Source: Zingiber officinale
Lineage: Eukaryota; Streptophyta; Magnoliopsida; Zingiberales; Zingiberaceae
Length of the DNA: 64,000 nt
Direction of reading: 5' to 3'
Assembly: GCF_018446385.1 (NCBI RefSeq)
Contig: NC_055991.1
Span: 119,951,794 to 120,015,793, forward strand
Shown here in pieces: positions 3,371 to 52,469 of this stretch. How positions within the stretch are numbered: position 1 is the first letter of the stretch; every line of letters starts with the position of its first letter. The notes beneath the pieces are model-generated. The model ran no database searches. It saw only the letters and a program-made list of their open reading frames with translations, and had not been told where the DNA came from. The translations under genes and the position numbers were made by a program.

Positions 3371-5436
3371 TGTAGGATCGATGCGCACGTGAAAGGGTGA
3401 GTAAATCACGTGTTTTAAAAAAACTCTTCTTTTCTTACTTTTAAAAACAAAGTGTGCAGTAGAATAAAACAAAATAGAAACGAAAAGAAAACATAAGAAC
3501 AAGATTAGTTTACTTGATTCGGAGCCTTAGACGACTCCTACTCTAAGGCCCAAGTCTCTCAGACTTATCGATTAGCAATCCACTAAATTCTCTTCCGGAA
3601 CCACTGGAAGAGTAACCAAATATAAAGAAACAAATAGGAAAGTGTAACAATTCTACACTTTCCTTTTGCAAGTATGTAAAGTAAGCACAAATTGAAAAGT
3701 CATTACCAACACAAATATGTTAAAATGAAAGTGCTCGTGTGTTGGTGTCGGTTTGTCTGTAGTTTTCGAGCATAGCCGTGTCGTAGTAGAGCAGCAACAC
3801 GAAGTCAAAGCAGTCGGAACATCGAATGATCGCGTAGAAGAGTTGTATGGAAGTTGTACTTGAATGCTTGGCCAAACCTTCCTTTTATAAGGCATTGGAG
3901 ATGCCTCCAATTCCACTCGAGGCACCTCCAATAGGAAGAAGCTAATCACTCCTGGATCAAATGTCGGAGGCATGAAAAGAGTGGGGGAGATCGGCAAGAG
4001 CGAGGCCAGCACAGGTGACAAGATCCCGGGGAAGGAGGCGGTCTGGTCGAGGGTCAGCCCACCCTCGATATCCCACTAACCCAAAACCCCAGACTGCTCC
4101 CTGGCCTCCCTCATGCTTGGTGATGACGCTGATGTCGATCTCTTGAAGGAGGTGATGCGGGCGGTGGGGAAGATCACCCTGGCCGGGGGTAGAGGAAGCG
4201 GCGCAACCAGGAAGGGCGGATCGACAGAGGAGGAGAGGGAGTTTAGGTTTGCTGCAGAATGATTTTGGAGGAGGGTAGAGGAGGGTTTCACGGAGGAGGG
4301 TGGAGGATGGAAGATGAGGTTTCTCGTGGAGAAGAGGTGGAGAAGAGGTTTTCACCCACGCGGAGAGAAAGGGTGCGAAGACTTTTCGACGAAGGAACCA
4401 GGAGGTTGAGAGTTACTGTAGGTGGCGCAGATGAAGAAGATGCTGGTAGTTTCTTCTCACCGCTCCACTAGGTTAGAGAAAAGAACGACGCGCGTTGATT
4501 GTTTGGACACTTATTTTTGGGATTTTATTCAACTGCAAGGGTAAATTATCATGTTCATCTTTTTACTTCATAAATTACTTTTTTACTCCATCAAATACAT
4601 TCTGCCGAAGTAATAGACTACCAAAAATAGGGAGTGAAGCCCGCATTTTTTAAAATGCAAAGTAAAACATGCTTTTTTACTTCTCCAATGTTATTATCGA
4701 AGTCGTTTATTATAAACTACTTCGAAATCCCTAATTATCGAAGTAATTAGTGCCGAAGTAAAAAATGATTTTTCTACTAGTGAATTGGGTACCATCTAAG
4801 GCACCTTCATCACCCTCTAAGGCGCCTCCCTGCAGCTCTAAGGTGCTTTGGATACTGTTCATCCGAGGCTAATTTTGGCACTTAACTCCTACAATATTTG
4901 TTAGTCCAAACAACAAATATACCTATAAAACGGAGGTAGCACATTTATAAAATAGTATTATTAATTAGATCCTGTCTTCCATGTCAGGATCTAGTCTTGG
5001 TTTCAACTTAGACTTCCAAAATGGATCTAAGCTGGACCAGTGCCTAAAGTCTCTAATTGGACTCGTTCTCACAAGATCACTCTCCTTGAATGAATTACCT
5101 CACTTACCATGTATAGTCGCTTGACTCTCCTTTGACCTGCTAGGTTTTCCTATCAGTTGTCAGGTCCACAGATCTAACTAGATTTCAGCCAACTGTCAAG
5201 TCCCATGGACCCAATCGCACTTTCCGCCAGATATCAGGTCACTCCATGACCTATCTGGACTTCCCACCAACTATCAGATCCAATAGACCTAGGTGGATTT
5301 TAGCCTGGTGTTAGGTCTTCCAGACCCATTAAGTCTTGCACATTAATAATAAGGTTAGATAACACAACATCTAACTTTAATCTATTTATCATTCATTAAA
5401 ACCTAAGTTTGACAATTGGTGCTAACTACACTAACA
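3371..5436 (-). mobile_element. 3' LTR of family D on the minus strand, split by a CACTA fragment
   Basis: The left edge starts TGTAGGATCG (complement of ..CCTACA) and the right edge is ..CACTAACA (complement of TGTTAGTG). Two halves, 3371-3938 and 4783-5436, align in order with the plus-strand solo LTR at 11692-12951; they are separated by the CACTA-derived segment 3939-4782. To the right, the purine-rich tract AAAAAGGAAGAAAT (minus strand) directly adjoins the LTR start and serves as polypurine tract, showing that this was a 3' LTR. Confidence 0.8.
3939..4782 (-). mobile_element. CACTA transposon terminal fragment inside a D LTR
   Basis: Its right boundary reads TTTTTCTACTAGTG, the complement of CACTAGTAGAAAAA, the standard CACTA terminus. 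Subterminal repeats follow with the core ACTTCG or CGAAGT, seen about eight times between 4600 and 4770. The remainder (3960-4480) is GC-rich and open in several frames, with a 132-codon minus-strand frame at 3957-4355. It may be the leader or first exon of the element. No opposite CACTA terminus was found, so it is truncated. Confidence 0.7.
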
Positions 5437-21749: not shown

Positions 21750-22722
21750 AATGGCTTTCAATTCTCTTGTTGTTATATTGAAAGAAAAAAAAACTTACTG
21801 GTCCTAATTACATTGATTGAAACGAAACTTGGACATTGTCTTAACTGCTGAGGGATACAAGTTCGTACTTCTTGAGGTCTATCCTAGCGTGCTTGATAAG
21901 GATTCTAGTGAAGAGGAGATGGAGAGACATTGGAAATGAGTCAAGGCAGATGAGATGGCGCGGTGTTACATTTTGACTTCTATGTCAAATGTGCTGCAAA
22001 ATCAGCATCAAACCATACCCACTACCTATGATATGATGCTCAATCTCAAGGAACTCTTCGGATACCAGAATCGGATTGCCAGGTAGGAGGTCATGAGAAA
22101 CTTAATGACGACCATCATGACTGAGGGGACACCCCTAAGGGATCATATCCTCATGATGATGGCTCATTTGACGAACTGTCCTCGCAGAAACGAGAACAAT
22201 GAAGGTGTATCTTATTTATTAGTCGTCGAAACATGTTTAGCAATGTTATCTACCGATACCTGGTGTGTAGATACGGGAGCCATTGATCATGTCTGCAATT
22301 CATTGCAGGGGTTCCAGGAAACCCGACGACTACATGAAGGGGAAATTATCGTCTACATGGGCAATGCTACAAAAGTGGCGACTGTTGTAGTGGGAGATGT
22401 TTATTTATCTTTTGATAGAAATAAAATATTGATTCTGAGAAATTGTCTTTACGTACCATGTTTTAGAAAGAACTTGATTTCAGTTTCTAAACTATTTATG
22501 GATGAATATTCTGTTTCTTTTGATGACAAAGTAGTTGTCAAGAAAAATAGGGTAGTTATCTGTTCTGGTACGTTGGTTGACAATTTGTTTACTCTAAATC
22601 CATAACTCCCACGATATAACAAATGGAAATTAATAACACATCTTCTAATTCTAATAAGAGAAAGCAACCTTCGGAAATAAACCAAACATATCTTTGGCAT
22701 CTAAGGTTTGATCATATTACCT
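21750..22722 (+). pseudogene. Copia gag and protease remnant of element E
   Basis: A gag start at 21750 (MAFNSLVVILK) is followed, with stops and a frameshift, by the copia gag core: NLDIVLTAEGYKFVLLE, then ADEMARCYILTSMSNVLQNQ. From 22093 an open frame of 170 codons continues gag, lacks the expected zinc-knuckle stretch, and runs into the aspartic protease with WCVDTGAIDHVCN (active site DTGA at 22270-22281) and NCLYVPCFRKNLISVSKL. After a stop at 22603-22605 the GAG-pre-integrase start (QTYLWHLRFDHI) is visible. It then stops exactly where the next LTR begins. Integrase, reverse transcriptase and RNase H are absent, so the element could not move by itself. Confidence 0.85.
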
Positions 22723-25934: not shown

Positions 25935-26471
25935 AAATATTTAAATTCGCACGTTCTAACACCTAAATCACTAACGTCATTATTACAAACACAACATACT
26001 TGATGCTGACTTATTTCTTTTACAAACAACGTAAGAATCATATAAAGAAAGTCCGAGGACATACATTTTTCTCTTCTTACAGCTCTCTCACATGTTAGTT
26101 TGTAGTAGAGAAGATGGCCTAACCAGAGATTTTCCATATGCAATAGGCAAGGCCATGAGCTTTTTCGCTTTGCTAACATAAGCTCGCTTCGTGAAGTTAT
26201 CATAGTCGTTTGCTTCAATCTCATTGAGGATTTGCCTATACAACTTTAATGAAGCCCAAACCTACAAGCTGCACTAGTTTAGCACAGTAGCTATCGTTTT
26301 TTCGATCCAAATCGAGATTCCTAAAGCACAATTAGTTGGTAGCGAATTAGTTTCTCTTATGTTGGGTTGTCGACGAATCTTACCGGCCAACGACTAGCTG
26401 GATTGAGTTCGGTTATACCAATCTGTCTCTCGGAAGAACATCCTCGGCCTCTCGATTTGGTTCTTCATGAA
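25935..26471 (-). pseudogene. Partial duplicate of the PSY 3' end
   Basis: This copy matches 28265-28810 of the intact gene: 3' UTR, all of exon 6 (26088-26261, 174 bp, same length and still open to its stop), the last intron and the 3' end of exon 5 up to TTCTTCATGAA. In the exon 5 part a 2-bp deletion relative to the gene (AATCTGTCTC against GATCTCTGCCTC) shifts the frame. The other exons and the promoter are absent. It breaks off at 26471, at the edge of the TRIM-like element. Orientation is the same as PSY, 2.33 kb downstream, so it arose by local tandem duplication. Confidence 0.95.
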
Positions 26472-28420: not shown

Positions 28421-30058
28421 TCACATGTTAGTTTGCAGCAGAGAAGATGGCCTAACTAGAGATTTTCCATATGCAATAGGCAAGGCCATGAGCTTTTTCG
28501 CCTTGCTAACATAAGCTCGCTTCGTGAAGTTATCGTAGTCGTTTGCTTCAATCTCATCGAGGATTTGCCTATACAACTTCAATGAAGCCCAAACCTACAA
28601 GACGCACTAGTTTAGCACATTAGCTATCGTTTTCCGATCCAAATCGAGATTGCTAAAGCACAATTAGTTGGTAGCGAGTTTAATTAGTTTCTCTTATGTT
28701 GAGTTGTCGATGAATCTTACCGGCCAACGACTAGCTTGATTGAGTTCGGTTACACCGATCTCTGCCTCTCGGAAGAACATCCTCGCCCTCTCGATTTGGT
28801 TCTTCATGAAGCTCCGCCACCGATCGGTCACCTTGCCTTCGAAAATGTCCTCATCGGACAGCCCAGCCCGAGCTAGCTCATCCTGAGGCAGGTAAATCCT
28901 CCCTCTACTAGCACTGAACACAACAAAGTGGCACCACCTCAAAACATAAGCACAAGATTGATCAAGTCGATCGAGCAACTGATTGAACCAATCAAGACTT
29001 ACTCTTCGCCGACATCTCTAAGTATATTGGTAAGTTGGTTAGCAATTCCTAAGGCCAAAGCCGCGCTGTACACGCTCTCGGTGCTAGCCCTCGACTCGGG
29101 TGCGATGCCCATTACAGGAACACTCATCAACCCGACAGTTCCAGCCACGTAATAGCAGTACAGATAGAGTTCATCGAAGTTCTTGTATCTGGATTTCCTC
29201 AGGTCCATGCGCATTCCTTCAATCATGTCGCGAAATGGCTGAAACCCCCAAAGATCGAAGCTTCCATTATATTAGGTGAACAGCAAGTATATATATATGT
29301 AGGTTGATTCAGTTAAAGTTTGGATGCACACCTGGATATCGACAGGGAACTCTGAGACAGTATCAGACAGAGCTGCGTCGAACATGTCGTATGGCCTGCC
29401 TGAAAACACATCGTCCAGCCTCGACCCCCATCGATCTAAAGCAGTTGGTGTGATTTGCGATGCATTGGGTCCGTCCACAAGCTCGTCTGTCCTTCTGCAC
29501 CAAACTGAACAAGGAAAGCTCATCATTCAGCATGTATTCACAGATACAGAGCTCAAATGGATTCGATCAGTGTTGAGATTGTTCACCATAGATTGCCCAG
29601 ATGGCCTTTCTCCTCTCGGGGGTCATTAGCAGTGTTCCTGAAATTGAGGAGGAAATTCAGTGAGACAGAAGCAAGAAATGTTTCATGAACGTGGATTGCT
29701 CACCCAAGTAAAAGGTCTTGGCGTACTCTGCGCAAACTTCGCCACAGCGATCGTACGCCTCCTTCAGCAAGCTCGGCGATCCCGGAAATGCCGTCTCCGG
29801 CTTCTGGTCGATGGAGGTATTCGAGCTCAGTTGCTTCCTCACCAGAGCGGCCTGCTTGACGACGACGTCGTAGACCTTCTGCTCGGAGGAAACCGCCACC
29901 TGCCCTGCGGCGAGACTCGCCGCGCGAGGAATAATCGCGCTCTTTTCGGGCTTCGATTCGGCGTGAAGGGAGTGGACGCGCCACGTCCTTCTTCTCCTCC
30001 TCCTCTGAGAAGCTTCTGTTAAGCCAAGAACTCCAGAGGCTAGCAGCAAAGTTGACAT
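28421..30058 (-). CDS. PSY: Phytoene synthase, six exons
   Basis: Condenses two geranylgeranyl diphosphates into 15-cis-phytoene, the first committed step of carotenoid synthesis, in plastids. Exons on the minus strand are 30058-29704, 29637-29587, 29504-29332, 29238-29003, 28913-28721 and 28594-28421. All introns are GT-AG, and the internal exon sizes 51, 173, 236 and 193 bp are those usual for plant PSY. The spliced frame is 1182 nt, 393 residues. The N-terminus (residues 1 to about 60) is a plausible plastid transit peptide with a run of six arginines. The conserved synthase core follows. Both Asp-rich Mg-diphosphate sites are intact: DELVD (142-146) and DVGED (268-272). The start is the first in-frame ATG; an in-frame stop lies 13 codons upstream of it. 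No break was seen. Which PSY paralogue this is cannot be decided here. Confidence 0.97.
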
Positions 30059-30084
30059 CTTGATCGTAGTCAGTAATGCTTCGA

Positions 30085-30101
30085 TCACTTCATGTCATCA
30101 T
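30085..30101 (-). promoter_or_regulatory. Two overlapping micro-uORFs in the PSY leader
   Basis: Upstream of the PSY start on the minus strand lie ATG ATG ACA TGA (30101-30090) and, overlapping it in another frame, ATG AAG TGA (30093-30085). They end about 26 nt before the PSY ATG. If they are in the mature leader they could reduce initiation at PSY. A possible splice acceptor (AAACTTCTCAG at about 30116-30126) just upstream suggests a leader intron that would keep them in the mRNA. Confidence 0.6.
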
Positions 30102-36035: not shown

Positions 36036-36492
36036 CTAATATCTGTTTGTTTGAACCTATTTAAACACATGTAGAGGATCTCAAATATCTGAGACAAACA
36101 AAACTTAGATTTGATGTTCAGGTGGATTTGATAGTTTGCATGTCCATTGTTTTATACATTGGATTTGTTTTACTTGCATTATATTTTATTTATTATAGTT
36201 AGTTTCATTATATGTATTGTTATTTTATTTAATGATACTCTAAGCAACAACATATGTTTATTAAAAAGTCTAAGTTTATAATGATTCCTTAAGCAATACC
36301 ATTATATTCTAAGTTTATAATTATACCATGATATTCTATGTTTATCATTCATTTGCTTTAGTGTAGAGGAGATTTTCGGTAATATGATACGAAGATTGTG
36401 AGATGAGTTTGTTGCTCATAATGCTTTATTTATGCTTATTTCAAGTGATACAAGTTTAATAATGTTTCAATTTATATTCTCATTAGGTAACA

Positions 36493-36968
36493 GTGTATAT
36501 GAACAAAGCTAGGATGTACAATCGATTAGAAAATGGATTTATCATAAATGATTTTATTGTTGAAGTTGAACAGTTTGTGAACTTTGCTAAAAGTTATCCA
36601 GAATGTATGAATGATGCTGAGTTAAGGTGTTCGTGGAATCATAAAAAATGTCAAAATAGAGCTTTTCGTGATGAAGATACTGTAAAAATACATATATGTA
36701 GAAATAGTTTTGTGTCAAATTACTACAATTGGTACTGTCACAGAGAGCCTTATTTATATGAACTAATTGGGCCTTCTGGTGGTTCGTCTTCTAGGACTAC
36801 TGTTGCCGCTCCTGAAGCATCAAATAATATTGATATTTCAATGCAATCAATGGTTTATGATGCGATGAATGTAGTTGATTATTCGAATATAAATGAAATA
36901 CCAACACCTCAATATCGGCAACTATAAGAAATGTTAAAGGCTAGTGAAAGAGAAGTGTGGGAAGACAT
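36493..36968 (+). pseudogene. CACTA transposase-associated domain (TNPD N-terminus)
   Basis: The frame 36493-36927 shows the plant transposase-associated domain: MYNRLENGFIINDFIVEVEQ, then a spacer, LRCSWNHKKCQNRAFRDED and YYNWYCHREPY. The paired cysteines, the histidine and the YYNW motif are those of that family. A stop at 36925-36927 is followed in the same frame by EMLKASEREVWEDIP, which is interrupted by the solo LTR at 36972. The frame resumes beyond the LTR at 38021. Confidence 0.85.
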
Positions 36969-38424: not shown

Positions 38425-39338
38425 AAAAAATATACGTGGGAGGATGGACACGAGGTAGTATTTGCAGCAACGTGGAATATTTATTGTGCCAAATTGTACA
38501 AAGACCTCTTATATTATATGAGAAAGGATGACACAAGGTCAGCTTATGTATCCGAGGAGATCTAGAGTGCATGGACGACCACTTGGTCTGCAGATAGATG
38601 ACAGGCAAAGGCTTTAAAAGCTCGAGAAAATAGAAATACAGAGCCAGGTGGCCCGAGTACCGGATCCGCTCGACATACATCAGAATCTCGATCCATTGTT
38701 GAACACGCTATGGATCTGGTGAGTGTAATTCAATTTTTATATAAATCAAATTTTTATTTATTAACAAACTTGCATAATTTTGGCCCAACTTATTTGTGTA
38801 TGTAGGAGCGTTCTTTAGAAAGATAACCTACTTACCTAGAGATCTTTCTCAAGACTCACAAGAGAAAAGATGACACATATGTTGATGCTCGATCAAAAAA
38901 CATTCGGGTTTGAATTATTAATTTTATTATATTTAATCATTAATATTGATTAATTATTTTTAGTAATTGTGTACAACATATAAATCGTATATTTTTTCTA
39001 CATAGGAGGAAATGATAAGTAGGGTGGCTCAGACATCTCAGCAACTAGTAGAGGGAGGGGAGTCACAAGATCTATCCACCCAGCAAATAAATGATATTTA
39101 TTATGATGTTGTGGGTGAAAGGACAAAGAACTCCTCCCTCTACGGCCTTGGCTCCCAGGCTAAGGTGATATTTGATCGCTTGAGGACTCCTAGGGGTCGT
39201 GCTAGTTCCTCTTCTTCTTCTTTTGAGGTAGAGTCATTAAGAAAAGAAAATCAAGAATTGAAGACTCAAATGACTATGATGGAGCAGAGATGGGAGGAGA
39301 GGTGGGCTGCTCAGGAGCAGGCATTGGCTCAGATGTGA
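38425..39338 (+). pseudogene. CACTA second protein remnant (plant transposase, Ptta/En/Spm family)
   Basis: Spread over exon-like pieces. 38425-38700 encodes KYTWEDGHEVVFAATWNIYC and later SARHTSESRSIVEHA. 38805-38910 encodes THKRKDDTYVDARS. 39012-39338 is open for 108 codons with QQINDIYYDVVGERTKNSSL, YGLGSQA and then a coiled coil rich in Glu and Gln (ESLRKENQELKTQM). This order is that of the plant transposase family of TNPA/TNP1-like proteins. A stop at 38562-38564 and others show decay. Confidence 0.8.
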
Positions 39339-46264: not shown

Positions 46265-46642
46265 GGGTTAATTCCTAATTTAGTCCCTCATTATTTGACG
46301 TAGTCCCGATTTCGTACCTAATTTTTCAATTGACCAAATTTAGTCCTCCATTTTTTGAACGTTTTCCAAAATCAATCTTTTCGTCCAAAACTCTGTTAAA
46401 ATGATAGGAAGACTTGTTTAATCGGTGGAAGTGACCTTTTCTTGCGTTATTTCCCTAATTCTGGAGTTGCCCTAGAAATCGCAGAGACTCACGCATTGTT
46501 CATCGATGTAAGGAGAGGTAGTGTATTTTTGCTACTGTTGTCATTCTTTCTCCTCTCTACTTCCATTTCACCCTCCAATAGGTCTTCCCTCCCCTCGCCT
46601 CCCACCTCCCTTTGTTATTTTGATTTTAGCTTATCATTCATA
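46265..46642 (+). repeat. Left terminal inverted repeat of the MULE
   Basis: Pairs with 51606-52008 along its whole length, with small indels. Shared landmarks are TTTTTCAATTGACCAAATTTAG, GGAAGACTTGTTTAA and the CT-rich part ending CTTATCATTCAT. Since it includes a leader-like CT-rich region, it probably contains the promoter of the transposase gene. Confidence 0.9.
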
Positions 46643-47281
46643 CAGATACAACTACGCAAGTACAACTAGATCAAAAACCCCCCCTTTGGTACTTACTGGA
46701 GATTTTGGAGCAACTCCGACAAGTTAGGGCAACTTGTGTTATGTGTTTGCTCTTCATGACATGTATGCTCCTCCAATTCTGTAACATAGAAAACAAAAGG
46801 TTTTCGAAAATGGCATTTCCAAACTTCGTTTGTTGAGATTATGTAAAATATAAACTTCATTCACTCAATTTGTATTTGAATGAAATTGAATTTGTAAATG
46901 ATTCTAGTCATACTGAATGATATGAAGGGTAATGTAATTCCATTATTTTCTTTTCTAAGCAGAATGATAAAAAGCTAGTGAAGAACTCAAGCTAAGCTTC
47001 CATACATTGTAGAGTATTTTTATCTTCCGTGAAGTAGATTTGTTGATATCACACTGGCTCTCCTCTTATTTAATGACTCAACATAGTAAAACTTGCTTGG
47101 ATCACACTCCAAATTATGGTATATATACAAATGAAGTACTTAATGATTTACTATGTCATAATTTTCATTAATTCATTGAGTTATTAATTATTAATTGTGC
47201 ATATTTTTCTAGGACTTTGTGGTGAACCAGATTTCCTTACAATTAAGTTTTATTATAATGGGGAGATGAAATCTAGTCTTC

Positions 47282-50123
47282 ATGACAAAAAAATATATCG
47301 GTGGACAATTCGAATATTTTGACTATGTTGATAGGGATATTTTAGGGATGATTGAATTATGGGGCTATGCGGAGGATATAGGCTATAAAGACAAGCAATC
47401 TATCAAATTTTGGCATAAATTTGTAGAAACATTGAAAGATGGAAGATATTTGGAAAATGACACAGATGTTTTGGATATTATCCCCCATATTCCTAGTAAT
47501 TATGAGGTTGAAATATACATTGAACAGAATGATGGTCAGTCGGGGTTGGGGAGCATACTGATTAATCTGGAGAAAGATGTCAGGGAATCTGAGATAGATA
47601 ATATCAACAAAGATGTTGATGAATTTGAAGAAAGTGATTATGATTTTGATGAAAATGATAGTTTGTTTGAAACTTTTGTGGATTATGATGCAGGAGTCAG
47701 TAAAGAGAAAGACATGACTGGTGATAAACACATTTCTGATGAGTTGCTTCATATGATGCAACAACATGAAGGGGATGTTGATTGTGTGAATGATGATGGT
47801 TTTGGAAATCCATTAACTTCTAATGATGATGATGAAATATGATATTTTCCTATTTATGATAAAAATACTGATTCTGAAAACCCACAATTGAAGCTTGGGC
47901 TGATTTTTAATTCGAAGAAAGAAGCAAAATTTGCAATTGAGAGTTATTGCATCAGAAAAGGAATGTCAGTTATGTTTGTAAAGAATGATGGCAAGAGGCT
48001 TAGAGCAAAATGTAGAAACAATGATTGTGGATGGTTAATTCATGTTTCGATGATGACCAACGACACGTGCTGGCAAGTTAAAACTTTCGAAGAGAAACAC
48101 AACAATTGTGTTTGGGCGATTGAAAATAAATGCATTACCTCAAGTTGGTTAGGGAAAACATTTTTCAAAAAATTCATGTCAAATCCCAAGTTAGGAAGCC
48201 TTGAGTTCAAGAATTAGATTCATGAATCGATGAATGCAGAGATTTCTAGGAAAGTGGCTTACTTAGCGAAGAGAAAGACATTGAGTTTGGTCGAGGGAAG
48301 TGTTGAGGAGCAATTTGGTAAAATTAGAAATTATTGTGCTGAGTTGAAACAGACTGATAGAGATTCCACTATTATTTTGAAGTTAACTGAGGATGAAGTT
48401 AGACCGATGTTTCAAAGAATGTATGTTTACTTTTCTGCATGCAAGTTAGGATTCCAGGATACATGTAGGCCTGTCATTGGTGTTGATGGTTGTTTTCTGA
48501 AATCAAAAACAGGTGGACAGTTATTGTCAGCTATTGAATTGGATCCAAATAATAATATATTTCCAATATGTTATGCCTTAGTAGAGGGAGAATCAAAAGA
48601 TACTTGGATGTGGGTTTTGCAGTTGTCAGCTGTTGACATAAACTTAGGAAATGATTGTGCATGGATATTTATGTCAGACAAATAGAAAGGATTGATTCCT
48701 GCTTTGGACAGTTTGTTTCCAAATGATGAGCATAGATTTTGTGTACGACATATGCATAGCAACATGAAAAACGATGGATATAAAAGTGTAGTCATTAAAA
48801 ATGCATTGTGGGATGCTGCAAAGGCGACAACAGTCCATGAATTTCATAAGAGGATGCAAGAGTTGAAGGAGATTGATCGTAATGCATATGAGTAGTTAGC
48901 AAAAAAGCATGAGCATCATTGGAGTAAGATATTTTTCAGCATTATCCCCAAATGTGATATATTGTTAAATAATATGTGTGAGTGCTTCAATAGTTTGATT
49001 TTGGATGCAAGGGAGAAATCAATAATTGAAATGTTTGAAGCAATCAAAAATTTGTTGATGCGGCGGTTTCAGTTAAATCGTGAGAAGGTTGAAAAATGGA
49101 ATATAAGAAACTGTCCAAGGATAAGAGCTATCTTAGTTAAAATTTCTTTGGAGGTTGCCAAACTTATTCCTATGAAATCAGATGATATGCACTTCCAAAT
49201 TAAGGCAACAAGCAGTCAAGAGCAGCACACGGTGGACCTTTCTACAAATTCTTACAGTTATAGACAATGGGATTTGACAGGTATTCCATGCAAGCATGCA
49301 TTATGTGCACTTTAGTGTAAACATGAAGACACTGAGGCTTTTGTTAGTCACTACTACAAGACTGAAGCTTACAAGAAATGTTATTCAAGATCAATAATGC
49401 CGATTAATGGGCCTGATTTGTGGCTAGATTTTGTGTTTCCACCTCCACTTCCTCCAGTTTATAATAAGAATAAAGCTAGAAGACCGGCCAAATTGAAAAG
49501 AAGAGAACCTGACGAACCTCCAGCAAAATGTCATACAAAATTGAAAGCTCCACATAGACAAAACAAATGCAAGAGATGTGGCCATTTAGGTCATAATCAA
49601 AGGACTTGTAAAAATGACAGAAACACACAACAAGAGGCAAATTCACAGCAAAGTAGTACCCAACCAACAAACATTGATTCAGTACTTAATACAAGGGAGA
49701 AATTACAAGTTAGTTTAAAACATTCTATGAAAATAGTTTCTTAAAGTTTTGTTAACAATTGTAAAATTGAATACAGGTGAAGAGACCAAATAGAATTGAG
49801 ATACAAATTGGAGGAAGCTCGAACACCTTATCTAATGTGAATGTAAGTTTACTTAATTTCATTTTATGCTTTTGCTTCCATGTATTAAACTATTAAACAT
49901 ATTGTTGAAATGAATTTAGGTGGATCAATCTACCATCATTCAAACACCAGTGTATGTCAAAGGTGGTAGAAATTACACCACAATCTCCAGACTTCGATCG
50001 ATATCAAGTGATTCAAGAAGACAAGTTCAATCAATGTCGCAACCAGTGTTAAAGACTAGGTCTGGCACAAATATCTCGAAGAAGAGAATAACTTCATCAC
50101 AGTCTTCTGTCATCAAGAAATGA
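47282..50123 (+). pseudogene. mudrA-type transposase of the MULE, broken by in-frame stops
   Basis: Exon 1 runs 47282-49708 in a single frame interrupted only by stops at 47840, 48215, 48683, 48893 and 49313. Introns of 68 and 77 bp then join exons 49777-49842 and 49920-50123 (ending ..SSVIKK). Domain order is an acidic N-terminus with IGGQFEYF, a MuDR DNA-binding zone at about 47888-48200, and the MULE transposase with D (GVDGCF, codon 48485), D (MSDK, codon 48677) and E (MCECFN, codon 48980). A SWIM-like motif follows at 49253-49300 (RQWDLTGIPCKHA), its first two cysteines being tyrosines, and then a zinc knuckle CKRCGHLGHNQRTC near 49570. An N-terminal part (FLTIKFYYNGEM, 47231-47270) is in another frame across an A7 run. 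The gene is dead, but catalytic residues survive. Confidence 0.95.
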
Positions 50124-50702: not shown

Positions 50703-51181
50703 TCACAAGTGCAATGATTCAAATATTGTATCCATCTTTTCATATATCTTCGCAACTCTTGTTGCATGATCGTGATTCTCACGTTTTAACTCCAGTTGAG
50801 CATCTCGTAGCTTAGCAATTTTTTCAGATTCGTTAGGTGATGTACTTGAACTGGAATTTGAAGTTGAAGTTGAAGAATTGTTGTCACTGAAAGCAAATGA
50901 AGCAGCTGCGGGTTGTTTCGACTGTGTCTTCAAAAATGCACCATAAGCTTTCTCTGCCTCTTCTCTGCTCCAATATGATTTGTGTAAAGCACCACTAAAT
51001 TTATTCACTTCATTATGTGTTTCTGCCCAAGTATCATAAATCCCAGGTTTACCTCTAACAAATACACCATATGTTTTGCCCTACATCAGAAATATATTTA
51101 AAAGAACATTATTTCCATTGAGAAAAAGTATAAATTGCGTTAAAAGATTAAAATTTTCAAAAGGCTCACCATTTTAACCAT
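50703..51181 (-). CDS. Viroplasmin / RNase H1 N-terminal domain protein carried by the MULE
   Basis: Two exons on the minus strand: 51181-51170 (ATG GTT AAA ATG) and 51080-50703, with an 89-bp GT-AG intron. The product is 129 residues. Residues about 5-50 contain GKTYGVFVRGKPGIYDTWAE and FSGALHKSYWSREEAEKAYG. This is the small alpha/beta fold known from the N-terminus of eukaryotic RNase H1 and from caulimovirus inclusion protein, where it binds RNA-DNA hybrid or dsRNA. A Ser/Asn-rich linker and a C-terminal helix with coiled-coil character (EKIAKLRDAQLELKRENHDH) follow. There is no RNase H catalytic domain. It has no stops, unlike the neighbouring transposase gene. Start choice rests on the splice donor following MVKM; a longer 5' exon is possible. 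Function is unknown. Confidence 0.75.
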
Positions 51182-51605
51182 TCACCTTACCAAGTTCAAT
51201 TATGTTTGCATAATATAGTCAATACATAGTTAAAATTTTTAAATGTAAACACAAAAGCTACAATAAAATAATAGCCAAAATTACTTGATAGTGCTTAGTG
51301 AGGGAGTATATCTATATATGGCATCGTGATCAAACTTCCAACTGTACAAACTTTTAAAGCTTCACTTTTGCACTTCGAAAACAAAATAACATAACAAACT
51401 AGCATATTTTTTCTTTTGCAAAGTGGGGCACAGAAATTGAATCGACGTAGCCTCGTGGGAAGATTGGAAAGAGTAAATTGTTTTGAGAAAATGAGAGAAA
51501 GTGAAACTCAGTGAGATTAAATTCTATCAAGTGCTTATAACAATCAATCATTGACGAAACTCGGCGACAGATGAATGATAAGCTTGACGAAACTCTGTGA
51601 CAAAT

Positions 51606-52008
51606 GAATGATAAGCTAAAATTAAAATAACAAAGAGAAAATGGTGGAAGGAGAGGGGAGACCTGTTGAAGGGTGAAATGAAATTAGAGAGGAGAAAAAT
51701 GGCAATAGCGCAGATGGGAATATGCTACCTCTCCTGAAATCGCTGAATAAGGTGATCGTTGAACAAGGCGTGTTAGTATCTCCTTCTAGGTCATCTCCAG
51801 AATGAGGATTTGGACGCAATAATAAAAGCAACAATAGGTAAATTCCACTGGTTAAACAAGTCTTCCCGTCTATTTTAACGGGGATTTGGACGGAAGAATT
51901 AATTTGGGAAAATGTTCAAAAATTAGAGGACTAAATTTGGTCAATTGAAAAATTAGGGACGAAATCAACACCACATCAAATAATGAGAGACTAAATTGAG
52001 AATTACCC
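51606..52008 (-). repeat. Right terminal inverted repeat of the MULE
   Basis: Inverted partner of 46265-46642. It starts inside at ATGAATGATAAGCT, which is followed by a second nearby copy of that phrase, and ends GAATTACCC at 52008. Confidence 0.9.
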
Positions 52009-52018
52009 ATAATCATAA

Positions 52019-52469
52019 TTAAAATTCTAGTTAATCTCATGCATTATTTGTATGATGACATCGTAATCCCGTAGACATATTAAAAATTATTGACTTAATA
52101 ATTAAAAATATATATTAGACTATTTATACCAATGTCATTAGATAACATCTATTTTTTTCCCCCTTCAATCTTATTAATCCTAATCTTCCCTAACCATTTC
52201 TCCAAAACCTAACTCCCAGTTCTCATAACCTTTTCTCTCCTCGTCTCTCTCGCCACAGCTGCTTCCTCTCATCTGTCTCTCTCAACAAGTCGTCACGAGC
52301 CTCTCGCGCTCGAAGTAGCCGCTAGCCGCTCGCGCATGAAGCGGCCGTGAGCGTCTCACTCTCGCAGCAGCTGCAAACAACCTTGTGGCAGCCTCACACA
52401 ACCGCGAGCAACTATACGGCCTTTTGACATTTTTTGTGTGGTAGATGTCGTAATCAGTCAGGAATCGTC
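52019..52469. other. Leader-like CT-rich sequence upstream of a gene fragment
   Basis: AT-rich to 52160, then CT-rich (TCTCTCTCGCC and similar, 52220-52300) and GC-rich with CGCTCGCG words. It resembles a 5' UTR but has no independent support. Confidence 0.3.

Follow-up and report, generated by a model that had tools for sequence, protein, structure and literature searches.

What a small gene with an open reading frame is doing inside a MULE whose transposase gene is broken is the question raised by a 64,000-nucleotide stretch of the ginger (Zingiber officinale) genome, hereafter called the window. The initial annotation had described this gene, convergent with a mudrA-type transposase gene, as encoding the RNase H1 N-terminal domain without the nuclease, and had left it to be either an accessory protein of a MULE lineage or a captured host gene. 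MULEs have few second genes, and what these do is mostly an open question. In maize MuDR, the second gene, mudrB, lies convergent with mudrA before the right terminal inverted repeat (TIR); to our knowledge, its MURB protein is unrelated to the product of the present gene, which we name VP. As developed below, VP, which encodes a small protein with a predicted hybrid-binding domain, is probably best explained as a MULE accessory gene that occupies the place of mudrB and has been exchanged between MULE classes.

The element carrying VP in the window is a 5.74-kb MULE with ends at 46265 and 52008 (Table 1). Its TIRs, about 380-400 bp long and about 76% alike over their length (arms 74-94%), are flanked by an exact 10-bp target-site duplication, within the 8-11 bp of MULEs, and the domains of the MULE superfamily, PF10551 and PF03108, are both found in its transposase gene; a weak continuation of PF10551 at 48689-48763 (E 0.035) and a weak SWIM match lie below cut-off. 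As had been read from the letters, mudrA contains five in-frame stops (47840, 48215, 48683, 48893 and 49313) with no frameshift between them, and the coordinates place VP convergent with it and before the right TIR. A further stop at 49742 is probably intronic, and 49920-50123 is probably the last coding stretch of mudrA. Between this presumed transposase end and the VP stop lie 580 bp, and between the VP start and the right element end lie 827 bp. None of the five stops is a stop in the sister copy L030 (0/5), where two other stops interrupt the mudrA pieces compared.

Table 1 Features of the VP-bearing MULE in the window
Feature	Position	Strand	Remarks
Left target-site duplication, ATAATCATAA	46255..46264	.	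Exact 10-bp repeat
Left terminal inverted repeat	46265..46641	+	Inverted match to about 51604-52021
mudrA-type transposase gene	47270..50123	+	Open frames and Pfam; five in-frame stops
DBD_Tnp_Mut (PF03108) in mudrA	47885..48067	+	E 9.2e-12
MULE transposase domain, first part (PF10551)	48473..48640	+	E 4.4e-9
VP gene (two exons)	51181-50703	-	129 aa in all
VP exon 1, ATGGTTAAAATG (MVKM)	51170..51181	-	12 nt; ATG at 51181; the second ATG is the conserved one
VP intron	51081..51169	-	89 bp, GT-AG, directly 3' of a start codon
VP exon 2	50703..51080	-	125 codons and stop
RNase H1 N-terminal (hybrid-binding) domain, PF01693	50949..51077	-	E 1.2e-11, profile 1-43 of 44
C-terminal helix, probable coiled coil	50712..50834	-	Alignment of 13 VPs and AlphaFold model
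Right terminal inverted repeat	51604..52008	-	Inverted match to left TIR
Right target-site duplication, ATAATCATAA	52009..52018	.	Exact 10-bp repeat

Outside this element, the window contains exons at 28424-30094 (minus strand) reading like a phytoene synthase gene, which by their motifs we take to be phytoene synthase, with an apparent second copy of the last exon at 26091-26261 (minus strand), about 2.2 kb downstream; a Pfam search with the first exon alone gave no match. CACTA-type remains lie at 36487-36927 and 39006-39338 (plus strand; Transpos_assoc E 2.8e-10, with a weak Transposase_24 match below cut-off), and a retrotransposon Pol fragment at 22087-22605 (plus strand; Pol_BBD E 1.1e-16).

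The gene structure proposed for VP, that is, a start codon, a short GT-AG intron and an uninterrupted second exon, is upheld (Table 1). A Pfam search returns the RNase H1 N-terminal family, as predicted, for residues 6-48 of the window VP (45.1 bits against a cut-off of 21), and the VPs at three other loci score 66.7 (L015), 54.2 (L028) and 58.6 bits (L022), all above the curated cut-off. The best match in the PDB with the window VP as a single sequence is the N-domain of yeast RNase HI (1qhk, E 7.7e-5), and a profile of 13 VPs (the window and 12 others) matches 1qhk with E 1.1e-9 and the human RNase H1 domain (3bsu) with E 2.6e-5. No catalytic RNase H domain was found in the window VP, the frame stopping after the 125 codons of exon 2 with no second Pfam domain above cut-off. 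The upstream ATG, which gives MVKM in the window, is not an ATG in L030, and the window product may therefore have 126 rather than 129 residues. The protein is divided into the domain, a Ser/Thr-rich linker and the C-terminal helix. In a single-sequence AlphaFold model of the window VP, a helix spans residues 83-123 (block pLDDT 81-86 for residues 91-120); the model is otherwise poor (mean pLDDT 62.6) and leaves the domain unfolded.

The weight that the initial annotation had put on an intact gene within a dead element is not sustained. Stop-prone codons number 6 of 130 in VP and 48 of 825 in mudrA (43 left plus the five stops), and chance alone would let all five stops miss VP in 54% of cases by stop-prone codons, or in 48% by length alone, so that the intact frame is not significant and was rejected as a sign of selection on the window copy. 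Moreover, the window VP has departed from its relatives at V5, G9 and R10 of exon 2, three positions of the domain that otherwise hardly vary. The glycine lost at G9, equivalent to human G34, is kept in all 19 other VPs and in 80 of 80 bacterial relatives, and by this loss the window copy may be impaired although open. The window holds a broken transposase together with a VP copy that is probably drifting, and the significance of VP has to be sought among other copies.

The source plant's own genome (3.09 Gb) was searched with the PF01693 profile, which gave 1421 candidates; 150 of these were scored and all 150 passed the cut-off, the counts being lower bounds. Twenty of the 150 scored rows, hand-chosen to span frame lengths, were fetched as loci and searched by tblastn, the queries being the window's transposase pieces and the two FAR1-type transposases deduced from L015 and L028, both of which contain FAR1, MULE and SWIM domains by Pfam. 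A transposase is present at 17 of the 20 loci and convergent with VP at all 17, being MuDR-type at three (L022, L030 and L032) and FAR1-type at 14, among which L018 is rearranged and L013 is a transposase tail; tblastn gave no transposase match in the fetched loci L021, L025 and L031. Within the VP family of the window, 24 of 31 rows have a mudrA match within 5 kb, convergent in 24/24 among the matches listed, and two further rows have mudrA 15-20 kb off. Counted from mudrA, again among the matches listed, every one of the 30 VP-mudrA pairs no more than 5 kb apart is convergent, and a VP row lies within 5 kb of 18 of the 23 mudrA rows with at least 80% identity. These MuDR-type counts used 113 of 150 VP rows, FAR1-type rows at 51-55% and additional fragments of copies already listed making up most of those set aside, and 89 of 150 mudrA rows, the remainder being mostly weak or second fragments. 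For the FAR1 type, 35 of 37 VP-transposase pairs within 8 kb are convergent among the rows compared, comprising 82 of 150 FAR1 rows (the best 70 and 12 picked for nearness to a VP row) and 63 VP rows, which are a part of all; because of these 12 rows, the count speaks for orientation and not for frequency. In one of the two exceptions, the transposase near the VP has a second VP, 6.2 kb away, with which it is convergent; in the other, VP and transposase are 7.3 kb apart. If all 1421 candidates are counted as VP, a randomly placed point would by chance have about 0.005 VP within 5 kb.

Wherever both TIRs were found, VP lies inside them. VP therefore shows what characterizes a mudrB-type place, namely convergent orientation, a position inside the far TIR and recurrence among copies, and six transposase lineages from two MULE classes (four MuDR-type, two FAR1/Jittery-type) have members with a convergent VP. 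The proposal of an accessory protein, together with its prediction of the same gene at the same place in other copies, thus gains support within the ginger genome, on a wider scale than one MULE lineage. Target duplications, sought in 11 elements, are exact in the window, L030 and L032 and have one mismatch in L022; L016 shows an 8-bp match, and none was found in L014, L018 and L020. Three VP-bearing FAR1-type elements (L015, L017 and L026) sit in (TA)n, where a TA run is indistinguishable from a duplication; MuTAnT elements of Medicago are likewise described in (TA)n runs in the available part of the source (PMC4486113). L022 and L032 were rejected as independent insertions, their common flanks and target duplication marking them as one insertion that was later duplicated; the two copies, about 95% alike, lie on two contigs, as after a segmental or chromosome duplication following insertion.

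The association extends to more distant transposases. At L122, L123 and L124, VP is convergent with a mudrA about 60% identical to that of the window (60% over 487 residues for L122), the VP of L124 having several stops; at L125, it is convergent with a 48% mudrA piece, and this VP groups with that of L022. L128 and L129 combine a convergent VP with a MuDR-type transposase that is much less closely related, its pieces showing 24-32% identity; in L128, this transposase has PF03108 and SWIM above and MULE below cut-off. L126 and L127 carry VP with no transposase match in the fetched stretch of about 5 kb, and it is possible that they are non-autonomous elements keeping VP alone. VP is absent from all four MuDR-type relatives of 60-66% identity inspected (L116-L119; 4.6-4.8 kb downstream), and among the matches listed a VP row lies within 5 kb of just 5 of the 48 mudrA rows with 50-66% identity, indicating that many related transposases do without VP. 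The mudrA-like gene of L118 has a frame of 707 residues, as do three relatives elsewhere; L116-L119 may be either MULEs without VP or genes that have been domesticated. For Jittery and AutoMuTAnT, the transposase gene is the single gene described in the accessible text of the source (PMC4486113), from which it follows that FAR1-type MULEs elsewhere can lack VP.

The structure of the gene is common to both classes. A start codon directly precedes the intron in nearly all copies, in the MuDR-type lineages as well as both FAR1-type groups, and the PF01693 domain begins directly or a few codons after the intron. Exceptions are L021 (upstream part missing), L018 (rearranged), L125 (ATG changed), L022 and L122 (exon 2 slightly changed in length close to its start) and a few copies with altered splice-site letters. 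The alignment of 13 VPs contains invariant residues both in the domain and in the C-terminal helix, whose first part is conserved in the lineages aligned; mean pairwise identities among six VP lineages are 63% for the domain, 37% for the linker and 44% for the helix.

VP is under purifying selection between lineages, dN/dS being 0.29-0.54 at dS 0.47-1.16 in nine pairs (bootstrap P 0.017 or less) and 0.26-0.48 in another set of 11 pairs, all pairs being hand-picked. Among recent FAR1-type copies, values of 0.40 and 0.43 (P about 0.02) were obtained for two pairs and values between 0.17 and 0.59 for others; two of these others lack synonymous change. The initial annotation had looked to dN/dS among related copies as a check, which VP passes between lineages, with values significantly below 1, and not in the comparison of the window with L030, where 0.76 (P 0.29) is indistinguishable from neutral; transposase pieces of the latter pair, taken as a yardstick, give 0.07 to 1.73. 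The VPs of L022 and L032 give 1.53 (P 0.80). This is the pattern of a gene that is maintained for as long as its elements transpose and that can drift after they have become immobile.

These data bear on whether VP is a functionless host fragment, transduplicated in the manner of Pack-MULEs and amplified by hitch-hiking. Host fragments are often captured by MULEs, many VP copies are broken (11 of 31 rows of the window's family are stop-free, some rows being fragments of one copy), and FARb elements of the FAR1 class also carry a stretch resembling DUF639 (E 7e-9, just below cut-off). A Pack-MULE cargo would be an unselected host fragment private to one family; VP, in contrast, is found in six lineages, with a gene structure and a C-terminal helix conserved over them, with the dN/dS values given above, and in the same place and orientation in the 30/30 and 35/37 pairs counted. 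A passenger status is thus very improbable, and the lone captured host fragment considered in the initial annotation finds no support, since six lineages of two classes carry VP. The FARb stretch in question, a 169-codon open stretch between VP and the transposase in L023, L024 and L029 (about 4160-4667, minus strand), is, as tested from L029, probably itself a captured host fragment.

The distribution of VP over the two classes does not follow that of the transposases. Transposases of the two FAR1-type groups, FARa and FARb, are 81% identical, and FAR1-type and MuDR-type transposases about 18-26% identical where aligned at any length. The VPs of FARa and FARb share 35% identity, whereas the VP of FARb is 65% identical to that of the MuDR-type L128, with transposases 25% identical in this pair, and 62% identical to that of the MuDR-type L122, with transposases matching over 16 residues only. 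In the VP tree, calculated from a 133-column alignment without L018, L021, L124 and L129, FARb groups with L122, L123 and L128 at 97/96, FARa groups with the VPs of the window's group at 94/94, which falls short of a star, and a single clade of FAR1-type VPs is rejected by the AU test, run after the identities had been seen (p-AU 0.013; 0.014 with fewer rows). In the transposase tree, the split between the classes has 100/100 support, and the branch of L128 is long. From this conflict, the simplest reading is that VP has apparently moved between MuDR-type and FAR1-type MULEs. Alternatively, VP may have been present, and duplicated early, in the common ancestor of both classes, the conflict then arising from hidden paralogy and loss; VPs do form one family and have the intron place in common. 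The transposases of the two classes, however, have diverged to about 18-26% identity, against up to 65% for the VPs, and ancient duplication with differential loss is the costlier alternative to exchange. The argument from identity is limited by the faster evolution of VP within the FAR1 class, where VPs are 35% and transposases 81% identical. On balance, strictly vertical descent appears quite unlikely, and exchange between the classes is the reading adopted here.

As to the source of the ancestral VP, a host origin is possible. A host RNase H1 gene was not found in the plant's own genome with the PF00075 profile and a bacterial RNase HI query. The profile gave 11680 candidates, of which 150 were scored, most in long open frames that are taken as retroelements, and the bacterial query retrieved VP-like domains, the best place being another VP-bearing MuDR-type element. 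The bacterial relatives of the domain, whose frames extend a median of 210 residues beyond the domain start, are taken as RNase HI from three sequences. PF01693 also covers the transactivator/viroplasmin of caulimoviruses, whose domain has been modelled on human RNase H1 and whose expression lowered the DNA/RNA hybrid signal of cells, according to the available part of the source (PMC7102451). VP might accordingly be thought to derive from this virus protein and to act likewise on translation or silencing. By its description, however, the virus protein has 520 residues with other domains, against about 126-129 in VP, and the presumed bacterial RNase HI sequences are up to 56% identical to the window's domain, leaving a viral origin with a slim chance. 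When viral contigs were searched, four loci were matched in one search and three in another; the match of L002, one of the four, was discarded, lying in a frame that we take to be GTP cyclohydrolase FolE, and no relative of the mudrA pieces m2 and m3, searched alongside, was found.

Referring to human RNase H1, in which we take Y29, W43, F58, K59 and K60 to be the nucleic-acid-contacting residues of the domain, the contacts were compared in 20 VPs (without L018) and 80 bacterial relatives. The equivalents of Y29 and W43 are kept in 20/20 VPs, and that of K59 is K or R in 20/20. VP differs from RNase H1 in being without the catalytic domain and at two of the contacts: the F58 equivalent is His in 20/20 VPs (Tyr in L018 and L129, outside the 20) against Tyr or Phe in 80/80 bacterial relatives, making the strength of binding uncertain, and the K60 equivalent is Ser in VPs, as it also is in 66 of the 80 bacterial relatives. 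Judged from its domain, the VP protein would bind RNA-DNA hybrids and perhaps double-stranded RNA (dsRNA), and it would probably dimerize through its C-terminal helix. We favour an anti-silencing role, in which VP may shield the element by occupying hybrids or dsRNA arising from the element's own convergent transcription; this role, put forward tentatively and at somewhat less than even odds, would achieve by a different mechanism what VANC does for VANDAL elements. Another role conceivable for such a domain is target choice, with VP steering the transposase-DNA complex to R-loops at transcribed gene starts and its domain setting the insertion preference. MULEs favour gene 5' ends, where R-loops form, the domain is of the hybrid-binding kind, and a protein retained next to transposases of the MuDR type and the FAR1 type alike would not have to recognize the DNA-binding domains of either. 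The insertion of L015, L017 and L026 in (TA)n runs looks instead like a sequence preference, and we regard target choice as rather unlikely, giving preference to anti-silencing.

VP is worth comparing with known genes of related function or place. As far as open-licence papers show in their available text, a VP-type gene in MULEs is unreported, transposon databases lying outside that scope. The mudrB gene is, like VP, the second gene of a MULE, with the RNase H1 N-terminal domain being the feature of VP; the function of the mudrB product is given as unknown, with an apparent requirement for integration, in the accessible part of one source (PMC6446971). VANC and VANB of Arabidopsis VANDAL elements are, like VP, additional MULE proteins, and VANC is an anti-silencing protein (PMC5735166; PMC10398659) that binds short DNA motifs sequence-specifically, whereas VP has a predicted hybrid-binding domain. 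The closest parallel to the distribution of VP is provided by a known gene shared between classes, the ULP1-like genes of grapevine MULEs, described for grapevine and melon as lying downstream of the transposase in MuDR-like and Jittery-like MULEs and as not monophyletic (PMC2528002, in the part available); ULP1, however, is a protease and found in both orientations, whereas VP has a nucleic-acid-binding domain and is convergent in nearly all pairs counted. Caulimovirus P6 carries the domain of VP without being RNase H1, but is, by the same partial source as above, a virus protein of 520 residues with further domains (PMC7102451). Finally, capE of a Pleurotus Helitron is, like VP, a PF01693 gene on a DNA transposon, but it is fungal, resides on a Helitron and is described as a captured gene, with no link to a transposase place reported in the available portion of the paper (PMC4289320).

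The apparent exchange between two classes implies that VP does something useful with either transposase. It may be, although we would put this at somewhat below an even chance, that VP represents an undescribed module of plant MULEs, a hybrid-binding helper for two anciently separate transposase classes that is exchanged as a cassette landing in the same place and exploits R-loops or dsRNA for anti-silencing or target choice. With a second MULE gene containing a domain of known biochemistry, the function of such second genes becomes testable, hybrid binding being assayable in vitro, and for some plants maps of R-loops and of methylation are available. Short proteins named "viroplasmin" or "RNase H1 N-terminal" occur in plant annotations, and VP may explain them.
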